Assembly (NCBI RefSeq): GCF_017744555.1
Contig: NZ_JAGIBD010000012.1
Coordinates: 1-64,000 of the forward strand
Reading direction: 5' to 3'
Origin: Cellulomonas sp.
Lineage (GTDB): Bacteria; Actinomycetota; Actinomycetes; Actinomycetales; Cellulomonadaceae
Length of the DNA stretch: 64,000 bases
Shown: in pieces, positions 45,012 through 49,437 of the stretch
How the letters are laid out: every line of letters starts with the position of its first letter
How positions within the stretch are numbered: the stretch's first letter is position 1
The notes under the pieces: generated by a model
The model's input: only the letters and a program-made list of their open reading frames with translations
What the model was told of the DNA's origin: nothing
Database searches by the model: none
Made by a program: the position numbers and the translations under genes

Positions 45012-45626
45012 TCAGAGGCTGACGAGGGCGACCTGGTACAGGCCGGCCAGCGCGAGCCCGCCCAGCGGGGCGCCGACCGCGACCTGCGCGACCGTGTGCT
45101 CCCGCAGCTCGACGCGCGCCCAGCAGATCAGCACGACCAGCGGCGCGAGGACCAGCGCGAGCCACGGGCCGAGCTCGGCGGCGAGGATCAGCGCGATCCC
45201 GGCGGACACCCCCGCGTGGAAGCTGATCTTCCAGCCGAGGTTGACGACGAACAGCAGCGCCTGGGTGCCGATCGCGGCGACGACGAACGCGGCGATCTCG
45301 TCCGGCGCACCGGTCGCGCGTGCGACGGCGAGGCCGACCAGCGCACACACGATGTTCGACAGGATCGGCACGATCCGCTGGCGGCGGGTCGTCAGCATCC
45401 GGTCGTTCCACCGCCCGGCGAGGACGCCCGCGATCACGACGGCGTACGGGATGCCCGTTACGAACAGTGCGGCGACCGCGCCGTCGACCAGGCCGGCGGA
45501 CCCGGTGGCGTTCCAGCCCAGCAGCAGCAGGGTCGCGGCCCCGAGGCACGGCGGTGCGAGGACCTCGGTCACGGCACGCGCGAGGCGGTGCTGCGCGGTA
45601 GCCGGCGGGTCGAGCGTGTCGGTCAC
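45012..45626 (-). CDS. PAP2-like membrane protein
   Basis: 204 residues with five to six membrane helices. WKISFHAGVSAG and CWARVELREHTVAQV resemble the PSGH and SRxxxxxH motifs of the PAP2 phosphatase family, though the first Pro/Gly positions differ. A phosphatase acting on a lipid or isoprenoid phosphate is the best guess; activity is uncertain. GTG 45626 has no clear Shine-Dalgarno. It is divergent from the protease gene; the 161-bp gap holds an inverted repeat. Confidence 0.7.
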   Translation of the reverse strand: MTDTLDPPATAQHRLARAVTEVLAPPCLGAATLLLLGWNATGSAGLVDGAVAALFVTGIPYAVVIAGVLAGRWNDRMLTTRRQRIVPILSNIVCALVGLAVARATGAPDEIAAFVVAAIGTQALLFVVNLGWKISFHAGVSAGIALILAAELGPWLALVLAPLVVLICWARVELREHTVAQVAVGAPLGGLALAGLYQVALVSL

Positions 45627-45727
45627 AGGGTGCTTCCCGGGTCGCGGACGTCGCGATCTCTCGCGCGGCGCGATGGTAGCGGGAGCGGCGCGAGCGGCGC
45701 CGGAGGCTGGCGTATCTGGACAAATCG

Positions 45728-45747
45728 CACCAGGCTCCTCCCTGGTG
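45728..45747. promoter_or_regulatory. inverted repeat upstream of protease gene
   Basis: CACCAGG (45728-45734) and CCTGGTG (45741-45747) form a perfect 7-bp inverted repeat around CTCCTC, 40 bp before the protease ATG. It could be an operator or an RNA hairpin; nothing else in the window repeats it. Confidence 0.45.
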
Positions 45748-45787
45748 GCGCGGCAGGGGGACTGTCGTCGACCGTCAGGGAGCAGCG

Positions 45788-47362
45788 ATGCCATCGACGA
45801 AGAAGCCGGCGAACGCCGGTCTCGACAACGGTCTGTACCCGCCCCGGCTCGACAAGCTGGTCCTCCCCGAGGACCGGATGGCGGGTGCAGGCCCCGACTA
45901 CGGCGCGATCCTCGAGACCATCTGCGGGGCGACCGACGACTCGCAGCCCGTCGAGCAGTACGACGGCACCCTCGGCGTGACGGTCGCGTTCGTGAACGCC
46001 CACGAGCGCCCGGCCGTGCAGGTGCAGTGGAACAGCAACCTCGCCGCGGTGTTCACCAACCCGGGCGACGTCTCGGGCGTGCGGTGGGGCAGCGGCACGA
46101 TGATCGGCCCCGACCTGTTCCTCACGTGCGGCCACCTGTTCGACCAGGACCCCAACGGCTGGACGATCCCGCGGCAGAACGGCACGTCGAACGCGATCAC
46201 CCCGCAGCAGGCCGCGCTGCAGATGCACCTCAACTTCAACTACCAGGTGGACGCGGGCGGCGTGCTGCAGACCGAGGTGAGCTACCCGATCACGCAGCTG
46301 CTCGAGTACCGGCTCGGCGGTCTCGACATGGCGCTGTGCCGGATCGGCGGCAGCCCGGGCAACACCTACGGCTGGACCGAGTTCGCGACCAGCAACGCGG
46401 CCGTGGGGGACATGCTCGCGATCATCGGGCACCCCGCGGGCCAGCCGAAGCGCATCGAGGCGGGCCCGGCCACGAGCATCGTCGGCTCGACGATCGGCTA
46501 CAACGACATCGACACCCTGGGCGGCAACTCGGGCTCCGGCATCCTGCAGGCGTCGACCGGCCGGGTCGTGGGAGTGCACACCAACGGCGGCTGCAACCCC
46601 CAGGGCACGGGCCAGAACACGGGCACGGCGATCGCGGCGATCTACGCGGCGTCCCCGACGCTGCAGGCGACGACGCCGAGCTCGAGCACGGGTCTGGGCC
46701 TCGACTTCACGGGCACCCCGCTGGCGGTCGACATCGGCGGCACGCTCCTCGGCCAGGACACCGCGAACGCGACGGACACCGGCGTCCAGGACGTCGCGAC
46801 GCCGCTCGCGCAGGACATCCACGCGACGATCACGGCCGCGGACGTCGGCGGCACGCTCAAGGCCGCCGACTCGCACACGCTGCAGGACGTCACGTTCACG
46901 CCGCTGGCCCAGGACCTGCACGGCACCCCGCTCGCCCTGGACACGGGGTTCGCGGCCGACATCGGCACGATCAAGGCCGTCGACAGCCAGACCGCCGCGG
47001 ACGTCGGGACGCCCGTCGCGCTCGACACCCCGCTGTCGGTCGACACGGTCGGCACGGTCGTCGAGCAGGACCAGGGGCCGGGCGGCACACCGATCACCGC
47101 GGACGACCCGTTCACCGGCCTCCCGGGCGGGATCGACCCGCGCGTGCTCGCGGGGCTGGGCGGCGGGTTCGCGGGGCTCTCGGGTGCGCTCGCCGGCGGT
47201 CAGCGCCCGTTCGTCCAGGCCGGTCCGTTCATCCCCGTCGACGAGGTCCAGGCCCAGGTCAGCCCGGTCCTGGCCGAGCTGCAGGCGCTCATCGCGACGC
47301 AGACGCAGGTGCTCGCGTCGCTGCAGGCGCTGTACGCGCTGCTGTCCGCCGACGGGCAGTGA
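45788..47362 (+). CDS. trypsin-like serine protease with Thr-x4-Asp repeat tail (candidate graspetide-type substrate)
   Basis: 524 residues. The protease domain (about 55-290) has a complete triad: His116 in LTCGHLF, Asp180 in GGLDMAL, Ser248 in GGNSGSG. The N-terminus is hydrophilic, with no signal peptide or membrane segment visible. Residues 308-428 hold 13 Thr/Asp pairs separated by exactly four residues (for example TPLAVD, TLKAAD, TPLALD), mostly as T-[P/L/I]-x-A-x-D. A Gly-rich stretch and an amphipathic helix (about 484-520) close the protein. The next gene, 7 bp downstream, is a graspetide-type ATP-grasp ligase, so I infer the Thr and Asp side chains are cross-linked. A beta-helical repeat with no modification is the alternative. 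GGGAGC is upstream of the ATG. Confidence 0.85.
   Translation: MPSTKKPANAGLDNGLYPPRLDKLVLPEDRMAGAGPDYGAILETICGATDDSQPVEQYDGTLGVTVAFVNAHERPAVQVQWNSNLAAVFTNPGDVSGVRWGSGTMIGPDLFLTCGHLFDQDPNGWTIPRQNGTSNAITPQQAALQMHLNFNYQVDAGGVLQTEVSYPITQLLEYRLGGLDMALCRIGGSPGNTYGWTEFATSNAAVGDMLAIIGHPAGQPKRIEAGPATSIVGSTIGYNDIDTLGGNSGSGILQASTGRVVGVHTNGGCNPQGTGQNTGTAIAAIYAASPTLQATTPSSSTGLGLDFTGTPLAVDIGGTLLGQDTANATDTGVQDVATPLAQDIHATITAADVGGTLKAADSHTLQDVTFTPLAQDLHGTPLALDTGFAADIGTIKAVDSQTAADVGTPVALDTPLSVDTVGTVVEQDQGPGGTPITADDPFTGLPGGIDPRVLAGLGGGFAGLSGALAGGQRPFVQAGPFIPVDEVQAQVSPVLAELQALIATQTQVLASLQALYALLSADGQ
46709..47071 (+). repeat. coding repeat array, 13 Thr-x4-Asp units
   Basis: Codes for residues 308-428 of the protease. 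Thr/Asp pairs are at 310/315, 319/324, 325/330, 338/343, 347/352, 356/361, 371/376, 380/385, 386/391, 394/399, 408/413, 414/419 and 423/428. Spacing between units is mostly 9 residues, with 6- and 8-residue steps. At the DNA level the repeats are diverged, so conservation is at the protein level. Confidence 0.85.
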
Positions 47363-47369
47363 GCCGGCG

Positions 47370-48338
47370 ATGATCGGCATCGTGTCGCACGACGCCGACC
47401 TGCACACGCAGGAGGTGACCCGGCACCTGGACCGCCTCGGCGCCGGGCACCTGCTGCTGGACACGTCGCACGTGCCGACCCGGACCACGCTGACGACCCG
47501 CCAGCACCCGGACGCCACGTGGGAGGCCCGCTGGGGCGAACGGGACCTGTCCGACGTGCACGCCGTGTGGTGGCGCCGCCCGCAGCCGTTCGTGCTGCAC
47601 GACGCGGTGACCCGCCCGCAGGACCGCGGGTTCGCGCTCGGCGAGTGCGCGGCGATGGTCGCGGGCATCTGGGCGTGCCTCGACGCGGAGTGGGTCAACG
47701 AGCCGGACCGCGACGAGGCCGCGTCACGCAAGATGTGGCAGCTCCAGGTCGCGTCCCGCGCGGGCCTGCGGGTGCCGCGCACGCTCATGACGCACGACCC
47801 GGCGGCCGCCCGCGACTTCCTCGCCGCCGAGCCGGGCGGCGCGATCTACAAGTCGTTCTCCGCGACTCCCGCGACGTGGCGCGAGACCCGTCCGGTCCGC
47901 GACGTCGAGGTGGGGATGCTCGACCAGGTCCGGTACGCGCCGGTCATCTTCCAGGAGCTCGTGCCGGGCGGCCGGGACGTGCGCGCCACGGTGGTCGGCG
48001 ACCGGGTGTTCGCGGCCGAGATCCGGGCGGACCGGTCGGCGTACGAGTTCGACTTCCGCATCGACTCGGCGCACGCGCCCATCACCGAGCACCGGCTGCC
48101 GGACGACGTCGAACGCCGGCTGCTGGACGTCATGGCCCGCCTCGGCCTGCGGTACGGCGCCGCCGACTTCCGGGTGGCCCCCGACGGCGCGCACGTGTTC
48201 CTCGAGGTCAACCCGGCGGGGCAGTGGCTGTTCGTCGAGTACGCCACCGGCCAGCCGATCGCGGCGGCGCTCGCGGAGCTGCTCGTCCGGCTCGACCGCG
48301 AGAGGGCCGGGGCGCGGGCGGACGCGTTATTCGCGTGA
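47370..48338 (+). CDS. MvdD-like ATP-grasp peptide ligase (graspetide maturase family)
   Basis: 322 residues. An N-terminal pre-ATP-grasp part includes WWRRP at 67-71; then NEPDRDEAASRKMWQLQVA, a VIFQELVPGGRDVRATVVG lid region, and the metal/ATP loop LEVNPAGQW at 278-286 followed by a TGQPI end. This is the pattern of MvdD/MvdC-type ligases that form macrolactones or lactams between side chains of ribosomal peptides. The ATG at 47370 is 7 bp after the protease stop, so they are co-transcribed. The expected short precursor gene is absent; the protease's own repeat tail is the best candidate substrate. Confidence 0.87.
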   Translation: MIGIVSHDADLHTQEVTRHLDRLGAGHLLLDTSHVPTRTTLTTRQHPDATWEARWGERDLSDVHAVWWRRPQPFVLHDAVTRPQDRGFALGECAAMVAGIWACLDAEWVNEPDRDEAASRKMWQLQVASRAGLRVPRTLMTHDPAAARDFLAAEPGGAIYKSFSATPATWRETRPVRDVEVGMLDQVRYAPVIFQELVPGGRDVRATVVGDRVFAAEIRADRSAYEFDFRIDSAHAPITEHRLPDDVERRLLDVMARLGLRYGAADFRVAPDGAHVFLEVNPAGQWLFVEYATGQPIAAALAELLVRLDRERAGARADALFA

Positions 48339-48369: not shown

Positions 48370-49437
48370 GTGCTCGACGATCCCGGCGTCCCCGACGCCG
48401 TCCGTGTGGTCCGCGCCGACAAGGGTGCGGTCCTCGTGCTGCCCGCGCACAGGCTTGCGCCGCACGACGAGACCGCGGACGCCGCCGACGAGCCCCCGCG
48501 CCGCGTCCCGCTCGACCGCGACGGCCTGGTCCCTGTGCCCGACGGCGAGCGCACGGCTCCCACGGTCGGCGACTGGCTGCTGGTCGACGAGACCCCGGAC
48601 GGCCCCCGGGTCCGCTCGCTCGTCCCACGTCGCACGGCCCTGGTCCGCGACACGGCCGGGAAGACGTCGCTGACCCAGGCGCTCGCCGCGAACGTCGACG
48701 TCGTGCTCGTCGTCGAGCACCTCGACCCCGACCCGGACCTGGGCCGCGTGGAGCGGCTCCTGACGCTCGCGTGGCGGTCCGGCGCGCGGCCCGTCGTGGT
48801 GCTCACCAAGGCGGATCTCGTGCCCGATCCCGACGGCATGACGTCCGAGGTGGCCGACGTGGCGCTCGCGGTCGACGTGCACACGGTCGCGGTCCCCACC
48901 GGCACGGGGCTCGACGGCGTGCGCGCGCTGCTCGCGCCGGGCGTGACGCTCGTCGTGGTGGGCCCGTCGGGAGCGGGGAAGTCGACGCTGGTCAACGCGC
49001 TCGCGGGCCGCGAGGTCATGCAGACGGGCGACCGGCGGGCCGACGGGCGCGGGCGGCACACGACCACGCACCGCGAGCTCGTGCCGCTGGCCGGGGGAGC
49101 GGTGCTCATCGACACCCCGGGCATCCGTGGGGTCGGTCTGGTGGCGGACGCCGACGCGCTCGACACGACGTTCGCGGACGTCGCGGAGCTCGCGGCGCGG
49201 TGCCGGTTCGGCGACTGCCGGCACGCGGGCGAGCCGGGGTGCGCCGTGCAGGAGGCGCTCGACGCCGGCGAGCTGGCACCGCGTCGGCTCGACTCGTGGC
49301 GGCGGCTCGAGCGCGAGGCGGCGTACCAGGCGCGACGGGCCGACGTCCGGCTGGCGGCGCTCGAGCGGGACCGCTGGAAGCGGATCACCAAGGACATGCA
49401 CCGGGGCCTGCGCGGTCCGGGGCAGACGCGGCCCTGA
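48370..49437 (+). CDS. rsgA: ribosome small subunit-dependent GTPase A
   Basis: 355 residues. A circularly permuted GTPase: G4 (LTKAD) precedes G1 (GPSGAGKST) and G3 (DTPG). An N-terminal OB domain and a C-terminal zinc finger CRFGDCRHAGEPGC complete it. It helps mature the 30S subunit. GTG 48370 lacks a Shine-Dalgarno; TACCGT (48358-48363) is 6 nt upstream, so it has its own leaderless promoter and is not part of the protease-ligase operon. Confidence 0.94.
   Translation: MLDDPGVPDAVRVVRADKGAVLVLPAHRLAPHDETADAADEPPRRVPLDRDGLVPVPDGERTAPTVGDWLLVDETPDGPRVRSLVPRRTALVRDTAGKTSLTQALAANVDVVLVVEHLDPDPDLGRVERLLTLAWRSGARPVVVLTKADLVPDPDGMTSEVADVALAVDVHTVAVPTGTGLDGVRALLAPGVTLVVVGPSGAGKSTLVNALAGREVMQTGDRRADGRGRHTTTHRELVPLAGGAVLIDTPGIRGVGLVADADALDTTFADVAELAARCRFGDCRHAGEPGCAVQEALDAGELAPRRLDSWRRLEREAAYQARRADVRLAALERDRWKRITKDMHRGLRGPGQTRP

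Follow-up and report, generated by a model that had tools for sequence, protein, structure and literature searches.

We consider two adjacent genes in the first 64,000 nucleotides of contig NZ_JAGIBD010000012.1 (assembly GCF_017744555.1, Cellulomonas sp.), the stretch of DNA that we call the window. The first gene (45788 to 47362; ATG at 45788, stop at 47360-47362) encodes a 524-residue protease with a tail of T-x4-D units, and the second (47370 to 48338; ATG at 47370, stop at 48336-48338) encodes a 322-residue ATP-grasp ligase of the graspetide-synthetase type. Both are on the + strand, as are all of their features given below. The explanation that best fits the comparison of this pair with its relatives, and that we consider probable, is that the ligase modifies the tail of the neighbouring protease, with the protease as the precursor. 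In the mechanism that we propose, the protease itself would be the precursor and the ligase would dock on a PF motif near the C-terminus of the protease, a natural follower replacing the N-terminal leader. With ATP, the ligase would link the side chain of Thr to that of Asp in every T-x4-D unit, so that the tail, still attached to the protease, would carry as many as ~15 small ester rings. Thr-Asp ester rings are our best guess at the chemistry; elsewhere, the rings would be Lys-Asp/Glu amides. The sequences themselves show the pairing, the spacing, the retention of T and D, the motif and the shared presence or lack of tail and ligase; from these we infer that the tail is the substrate, that docking takes place on the motif and that rings are formed.

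The repeat tail (residues 301 to 439, 46688 to 47104) contains 15 of the 17 T-x4-D units in the whole protease. A reading of this DNA from its letters alone (the sequence-only reading) had recognized the tail correctly and counted 13 units, a number that is slightly low. When the window tail is examined alone, T-x4-D ranks first of 4000 ordered combinations of residue pair and spacing (14 seen, 2.6 expected), and none of 1000 shuffles matches the count. A tandem-repeat search at the DNA level (TRF) gives merely two short rows, so the repeat resides in the spacing of the protein residues and not in the DNA. The spacing again ranks first of 4000 in nine actinobacterial lineages of the protease (94 seen, 17.1 expected, z 19.3) and first in a set of four divergent tails that has three members in common with the nine lineages (37 against 6.3, z 11.7). 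In eight pairs of orthologs, with some members in common and gapped columns excluded, the unit T is kept at 85 of 90 positions (94%) and the unit D at 87 of 88 (99%), while the four residues between them are kept at 199 of 350 (57%) and the other tail positions at 293 of 487. The tail thus holds a nucleophile and a carboxylate (T or K with D or E, when the relatives are included) at a conserved spacing, and these residues are the predicted cross-linking sites.

The next question is "does the tail go together with the ligase?" A scan of genome contigs for the S1 protease yields 28 loci from Actinomycetota, Bacteroidota, Pseudomonadota, a Phycisphaerae metagenome-assembled genome (MAG), Sorangium and Halorubrum. 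At 22 of the 28 the ligase lies directly downstream and the protease has a repeat tail; five have other tails and no ligase, three of these with propeller-like repeat tails (by eye); and the last, L074, ends at a contig edge and is dropped from the pairing count. Among the genomes of the five ligase-less loci, three hold no close ligase, one has a match with an E-value of 8e-4, and Sorangium carries a distant pair elsewhere. Five plasmid homologues have neither the tail (0/5) nor the ligase (0/5). Pooling these, the ligase is downstream in 22 of 22 S1 homologues with such a tail against 0 of 10 without one, and the case that the sequence-only reading had named as fatal to it, the same tail with no ligase beside it, is found at none of the 32 usable homologues. 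Comparison lends strong support to its core proposal, in which the ligase next door modifies the tail of a large protein. Within the genus, the protease occurs in 9 of 81 Cellulomonas genomes, and in all 9 the ligase is directly downstream; at least three of the 22 tailed loci also belong to the genomes of this genus search.

The tails of the 22 ligase-linked S1 proteases are not all of one kind. Seventeen are enriched in T-x4-D, with 0 of 1000 shuffles reaching the count in each, and the other five have an excess of K-x3-[DE] (shuffles reaching the count, out of 1000: L068 0, L073 0, L065 2, L063 4, L061 31). Tails of both kinds are also found on unrelated peptidases beside related ligases. 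A search of the 81 genus genomes with the ligase gives 27 matches in 20 genomes: nine beside the S1 protease, eight of a second (astacin) type, seven of a third type that we call the sister type, one beside short open reading frames (ORFs; G006) and two fragments. Six of the eight second-type loci have an intact astacin-like peptidase directly upstream, and one (G035) begins at a contig edge. In the remaining one (G050), the ORF ahead of the ligase (L038, 2445-3896) has its astacin part out of frame and is in frame only from the tail on, owing to a frameshift or a sequencing error. The assignment to astacin comes from Pfam (PF01400) in the two proteins scanned (L032, 8e-51; L037, 1e-46) and from the HExxH motif in the others. 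Across seven astacin lineages, K-x3-D is the top combination (41 seen, 8.6 expected, z 11.4). Individually, six of ten astacin tails have the K-x3-D excess (each 0/2000 shuffles), and the other four (L037, L075, L123, L124) have an excess of K-x4-[DE] (0 or 1 of 2000 shuffles) with no excess of K-x3-D. Because the astacin tails are of these two sorts, merging D with E puts K-x4 ahead of K-x3. A plasmid of Burkholderia stagnalis (L104) encodes the ligase together with an M43 peptidase (PF05572, 8e-16) whose tail is of the T-x4-D type; here T-x4-D comes first narrowly (8 against 1.5, z 4.6; runner-up pair 4.5). The tails fall into T-x4-D, K-x3-D and K-x4-[DE] types.

Tail and ligase are also absent together at one astacin locus. 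G015 has an astacin at the site where G016 has one, 76% identical to the astacin of G017 and with an intact zinc motif. It is without the 1523 bp that hold the tail and the ligase, and has 136 bp in their place, followed by the same downstream gene. This joint absence is a single locus, and a search of 28 genus genomes gave only the G015 astacin. In wider searches with the ligase, an order-level set of 356 genomes (E 1e-50) returns six matches, that of the window included, and all six are beside a tailed peptidase. At class level, 29 of the 116 matches besides our own were inspected and a tail peptidase is present at two; at the other 27, no tail-peptidase ORF ends within 300 nt upstream (by eye). 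Samples searched for close ligases give nothing past the starting genomes in Pseudomonadota (1/398), Bacteroidota (1/296) and the Halorubrum class (1/145; E 1e-40), so the unit looks rare there; the sample of the Sorangium phylum gives 0/207 at E 1e-45, an empty answer that is uninformative in itself. As a side observation, an astacin cassette of Cellulomonas (L031, 86-1226) and an S1 cassette of Austwickia (L060, 2691-3754) both lie near efp- and nusB-looking genes (by eye), which may mark one insertion site used by different cassettes.

We turn our attention to the motif on which the ligase is predicted to dock. In the window protease, it is RPFV (residues 473 to 476, 47204 to 47215), and it is followed by a C-terminal segment (residues 477 to 524, 47216 to 47359) that looks helical by eye. 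All 23 aligned S1 proteins have P474 and F475, and R473 is nearly invariant. A loose pattern, xP[FLY] at 50 to 94 residues from the C-terminus, is present in 38 of 39 rows of ligase-linked peptidases (S1, astacin and M43), a count in which the tails of rows L062 and L121 are identical and L036 has PL instead of PF. Among the tail-less S1 homologues, the five on genome contigs show no PF[VAIL] motif in that region. A precedent exists in RPFG, named as a key recognition sequence for the graspetide synthetase ThfB, and a leader relocated to the C-terminus is still functional, tandem cores included (PMC13003496). In the window protease, the motif comes after the repeats and not in an N-terminal leader before the core, as would be usual for a graspetide, and the order of cores then motif occurs here naturally. 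Beside ordinary ligases of the class, short candidate precursors carry a similar motif before the presumed core (RPYGMRF, VPFGVRH, RPWGLRR; by eye). Both the PF motif and the wider distribution go beyond what had been noticed from the window itself.

The ligase has the WWRRP and LEVNPAGQW motifs and the MvdD-like character that had first been read from its sequence. Its pre-ATP-grasp domain (residues 3 to 113, 47376 to 47708), which contains WWRRP, matches the Pfam family PF21068 at 36.2 bits, above the cutoff of 27. The region that follows (residues 124 to 303, 47739 to 48278), with K161 and FLEVNPAGQW, is of the RimK-like ATP-grasp kind; the match to PF08443 (18.2 bits) is below the cutoff of 21, and the region is conserved in an alignment of six rows. 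The solved relatives include the structures 5ig8 and 5ig9, named 'ATP grasp ligase' (5ig8, E 1.6e-38), AMdnB and CdnC, with RimK types at ~1e-5.

The protease is laid out as an N-terminal region, an S1-type domain, the repeat tail, a Gly-rich linker, the PF motif and the C-terminal segment. Its N-terminal region includes a conserved segment, CGATDDSQ-x-VEQYDGTLGV (residues 46 to 64, 45923 to 45979), within which both patterns used to find the S1 family fall. The S1 (chymotrypsin-fold) domain extends over about residues 78 to 292 (46019 to 46663), with approximate borders. The catalytic triad, assigned by motif, is presumed to be His116 (46133 to 46135), Asp180 (46325 to 46327) and Ser248 in GGNSGSG (46529 to 46531), each invariant in 23 of 23 aligned rows. 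The window protein itself matches no Pfam family above cutoff; a profile of nine rows, however, matches solved glutamyl endopeptidases (E 2.8e-7), and two of two homologues scanned match Trypsin_2. These matches point to a trypsin-like protein, as first described, with a divergent domain. Its best profile match among solved structures and its presumed chymotrypsin-type triad liken it to the V8-like glutamyl endopeptidases of S1, from which it differs in having the additional repeat tail and predicted docking motif, and no evident signal peptide. The last point, judged by eye, is the sole basis for calling the protease cytoplasmic.

Several relatives of this domain deserve a separate mention. 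In L066, L069 and L071, it is fused to propeller-like WWNG/IWHKYYDGG repeats and the ligase is absent, and so the S1 domain is often equipped with some C-terminal repeat (these three by eye). Two of the tail-less homologues, on rhizobial plasmids (L134, 3884-6992; L135, 3893-6833), are beside S8 peptidases with no ligase. The locus of an alphaproteobacterial MAG (L067, 80-3809) has upstream a fragment of an animal-type haem peroxidase and a second, hydrolase-linked Trypsin_2 protein. The protease of L058, an entry named Sphaerisporangium cinnabarinum, is nearly identical to the one in Cellulosimicrobium funkei (L057), so the entry may be mislabelled.

The two genes of the window pair are 7 bp apart (47363 to 47369), as the ORF coordinates give and as had been noted, and they alone recur side by side across 12 loci (crude ORF caller, by eye). 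No transporter gene recurs beside the pair in these 12 loci; a pair of ABC ATPases is downstream in L052 alone (by eye). The short precursor that had been reported missing is indeed not seen: among the longest ATG frames of 15 to 150 residues within 3 kb of the pair, with GTG and TTG starts outside the scan, none has three or more T-x4-D or K-x3-[DE] units. The source draft genome, given as 89.9% complete, has no second ligase that we could find. PADLOC has no match for either window protein, and a phage search with the protease gives none. The flanking ORFs, which we take from appearance to be a membrane-phosphatase-like protein upstream (45012 to 45794, - strand) and an RsgA-like GTPase downstream (48370 to 49437, + strand), apparently lie outside the unit.

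The sister type, in which a more distant ligase follows a peptidase with a Lys/Glu-rich tail, is represented by eight loci (seven genus genomes and Pseudarthrobacter). The peptidases are M6 in L040 and L130 (Pfam, 5e-22 and 4e-21) and trypsin/Nal1-like in L041 and L125 (below Pfam cutoffs), with L126 to L129 placed by similarity, and the sister type has [LQ]RP[DE]L near the C-terminus. In these tails, the top pair is K adjoining D or E, and K-x3-[DE] is weaker; since a charged helix would give the same pattern, we claim less for the sister type. A small second gene lies between peptidase and ligase; its copies are related to that of L130 in seven of the eight loci, and that of L040 not detectably so. 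We tentatively label it a truncated ATP-grasp, since the copy in L125 matches the ligase of L130 (E 1.4e-6) and the gene has the looks of one; the L130 copy matches neither Pfam nor its own neighbouring ligase. On contig 55 of the Pseudarthrobacter genome (G484), the sister cassette L130 (108-9995, M6) and the Lys-type S1 cassette L068 are ~7 kb apart. Between the two is a DUF7363-CHAT-caspase protein, and another caspase-domain protein comes after; these neighbours are hints of a conflict or cell-death setting.

On a tree of the ligases, the peptidase-linked and the ordinary ones cluster apart far better than shuffled labels do. The peptidase families are intermixed on this tree (5 and 4 changes), with single origins not rejected (p 0.139 and 0.245). 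Judged from this tree, the peptidases have likely been swapped among the ligases.

A number of observations weigh against the reading of the protease as the substrate of its ligase. Many rows are closely related, so the counts (32 loci) are not independent events. Outside Actinomycetota, the ligase-linked S1 proteases come from four metagenome bins (L061, L063, L065, L067) and one archaeal isolate (L073), and the other ligase-linked cases there amount to one plasmid (L104). The Lys-tail spacings were chosen after inspection; four Lys-type S1 tails rank K-F and N-K adjacency above K-x3-D, which is third, and the K-x3-[DE] signal in the short tail of L061 is weak (31/1000 shuffles). The motif pattern is not only loose but its presence also decided the choice among upstream ORFs, and one astacin partner (L076) is without the PF motif. 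The best NCBIfam match of the ligase, TIGR04187 at 242.5 bits, is under the model cutoff of 350. Finally, the peptidase-linked ligases do not come out firmly as one clade: one tree has them arise by one change, with support of 61/9, and a tree without five long or distant rows needs two changes, one clade being not rejected (p 0.415).

Known systems offer both parallels and other explanations. Like the graspetides (microviridin, plesiocin, fuscimiditide), the pair has an ATP-grasp ligase with an MvdD-type pre-domain, Thr or Lys at fixed spacing from Asp or Glu, a short PF-containing motif and a ligase gene adjoining that of the presumed substrate. It differs in that the proposed precursor is a 524-residue peptidase with its cores between the enzyme and the C-terminal motif, while a short peptide with an N-terminal leader was not found among the ATG ORFs within 3 kb. 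A parallel to the order of its parts is provided by engineered ThfA variants, in which core repeats are followed by the RPFG leader and are modified by the synthetase (PMC13003496); those are laboratory-made, whereas here the order is natural and on a protease. Long chains and repeated units have precedents as well: ThfB cyclises chains of up to 258 residues (PMC12291112), graspetide groups 34 and 35 have long precursors with repeating motifs, and corallotide (CorA/CorB, group 15) has single K-x3-D isopeptides in the large, ~22 kDa CorA, which is built from repeated single-ring units (PMC13097080). The K-x3-D isopeptide of CorA matches the K-x3-D tails of the related astacins and Lys-type S1 proteins. 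That source does not report CorA as a peptidase and places an oxygenase and a beta-lactamase in its cluster; the window units are T-x4-D instead. Of the ATP-grasp branches described by Makarova et al. in 2022 (PMC8939145), branches 7 and 8 are rich in unrelated peptidases, with precursors not found. Our loci resemble them in having several unrelated peptidase families and no recognized precursor, a comparison made with the window ligase by published description only; the truncated second ATP-grasp of branch 8 is resembled by the small second gene of L041 and L125 to L130, and the surroundings of the sister type agree with what is published on that branch. Those authors propose that the peptidases probably act on other cellular proteins, supplying peptides.

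This proposal, applied to the window, makes the protease a processing enzyme, its true precursor encoded elsewhere in the genome and its tail a mere low-complexity linker. We regard it as quite unlikely. The occurrence of tail-less S1 homologues with no ligase would suit a processing enzyme, as would the published opinion on branches 7 and 8, but a linker gives no reason for T and D to be conserved while the rest of the tail drifts, nor for tail and ligase to occur together in 22 of 22 cases and to be missing together in 10 of 10, as well as jointly at the G015 locus; moreover, only these two genes recur adjacent in the 12 loci (by eye). A ligase that adds amino acids such as glutamate to the tail carboxylates, RimK-like and with no rings, would agree with its weak similarity to RimK types. 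That chemistry needs no fixed spacing between nucleophile and carboxylate, however, and the MvdD pre-ATP-grasp domain and the stronger matches to solved relatives of the graspetide kind (AMdnB and CdnC among them, E down to 1.6e-38 against ~1e-5) also speak against it; we hold glutamylation or its like to be very unlikely. Carter et al. (PMC13097080) find a serine proteinase in more than half of graspetide group 9 and suggest possible self-resistance; that the protease is a self-resistance version of an enzyme which a graspetide produced elsewhere would target is scarcely credible for our loci, where proteases of several unrelated families themselves carry the core-like repeats.

If the tail of the protease is the substrate, what would the rings do? 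The sequence-only reading had allowed for a protease that perhaps cuts or regulates itself. The ringed tail could be an array of inhibitors that keeps the protease it belongs to latent up to the moment when the array is cleaved or hydrolysed. All graspetides characterised by 2022 are protease inhibitors (PMC8939145), and an unsecreted protease would be rendered harmless by a latch that depends on the ligase. The residues inside the proposed rings nevertheless drift, and T-x4-D tails are attached to a serine peptidase and to a zinc peptidase alike; the presence of like tails on unrelated peptidases lowers the odds that such a tail is matched to the active site of its own protein, and we find latency rather unlikely. 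Alternatively, the protease could cut its own tail and release multi-ring peptides, inhibitors or signals, as the product. Repeated cores in one chain are known from the microviridins (PMC5934393) and from plesiocin and thuringinin (PMC12291112), yet inspection by eye reveals no obvious cleavage site separating the units, and the 12 loci have no recurrent transporter gene next to the pair; we consider release unlikely. Over latency, which calls for an inhibitor fitted to one active site, and over the release of a cargo, we weakly prefer a tail or stalk that is stiffened by its rings and resistant to cleavage, by which the protease would tolerate its own long flexible tail.

Taken at the scale of the family, the comparison makes it rather likely that we are looking at a widespread and unrecognized modification, in which graspetide-type ligases of bacteria and a haloarchaeon, steered by a C-terminal follower, act on the tails of complete enzymes and not on small peptides. 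The enzymes concerned would mainly be peptidases, drawn from three or more unrelated families and probably from five (S1, M12A and M43; likely M6 and Nal1-like), and these peptidases would be the missing precursors of branches 7 and 8. We found no paper that treats a peptidase as the precursor, in a literature search that was thin on subscription papers and did not include supplements. Two surveys read the ligase-adjacent peptidases as helpers (PMC8939145) or, in one group, as possible self-resistance (PMC13097080). The reading of the peptidase as precursor may explain why branches 7 and 8 have no precursors, and if the proteases are substrates, this stated gap becomes directly testable. The C-terminal graspetide leader, presented so far as a step of engineering, would then exist in nature. 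An enzyme that furnishes a folded protein with a tail of many covalent rings would be useful for protein engineering, and the modification itself would be a new route to control or protect proteases.

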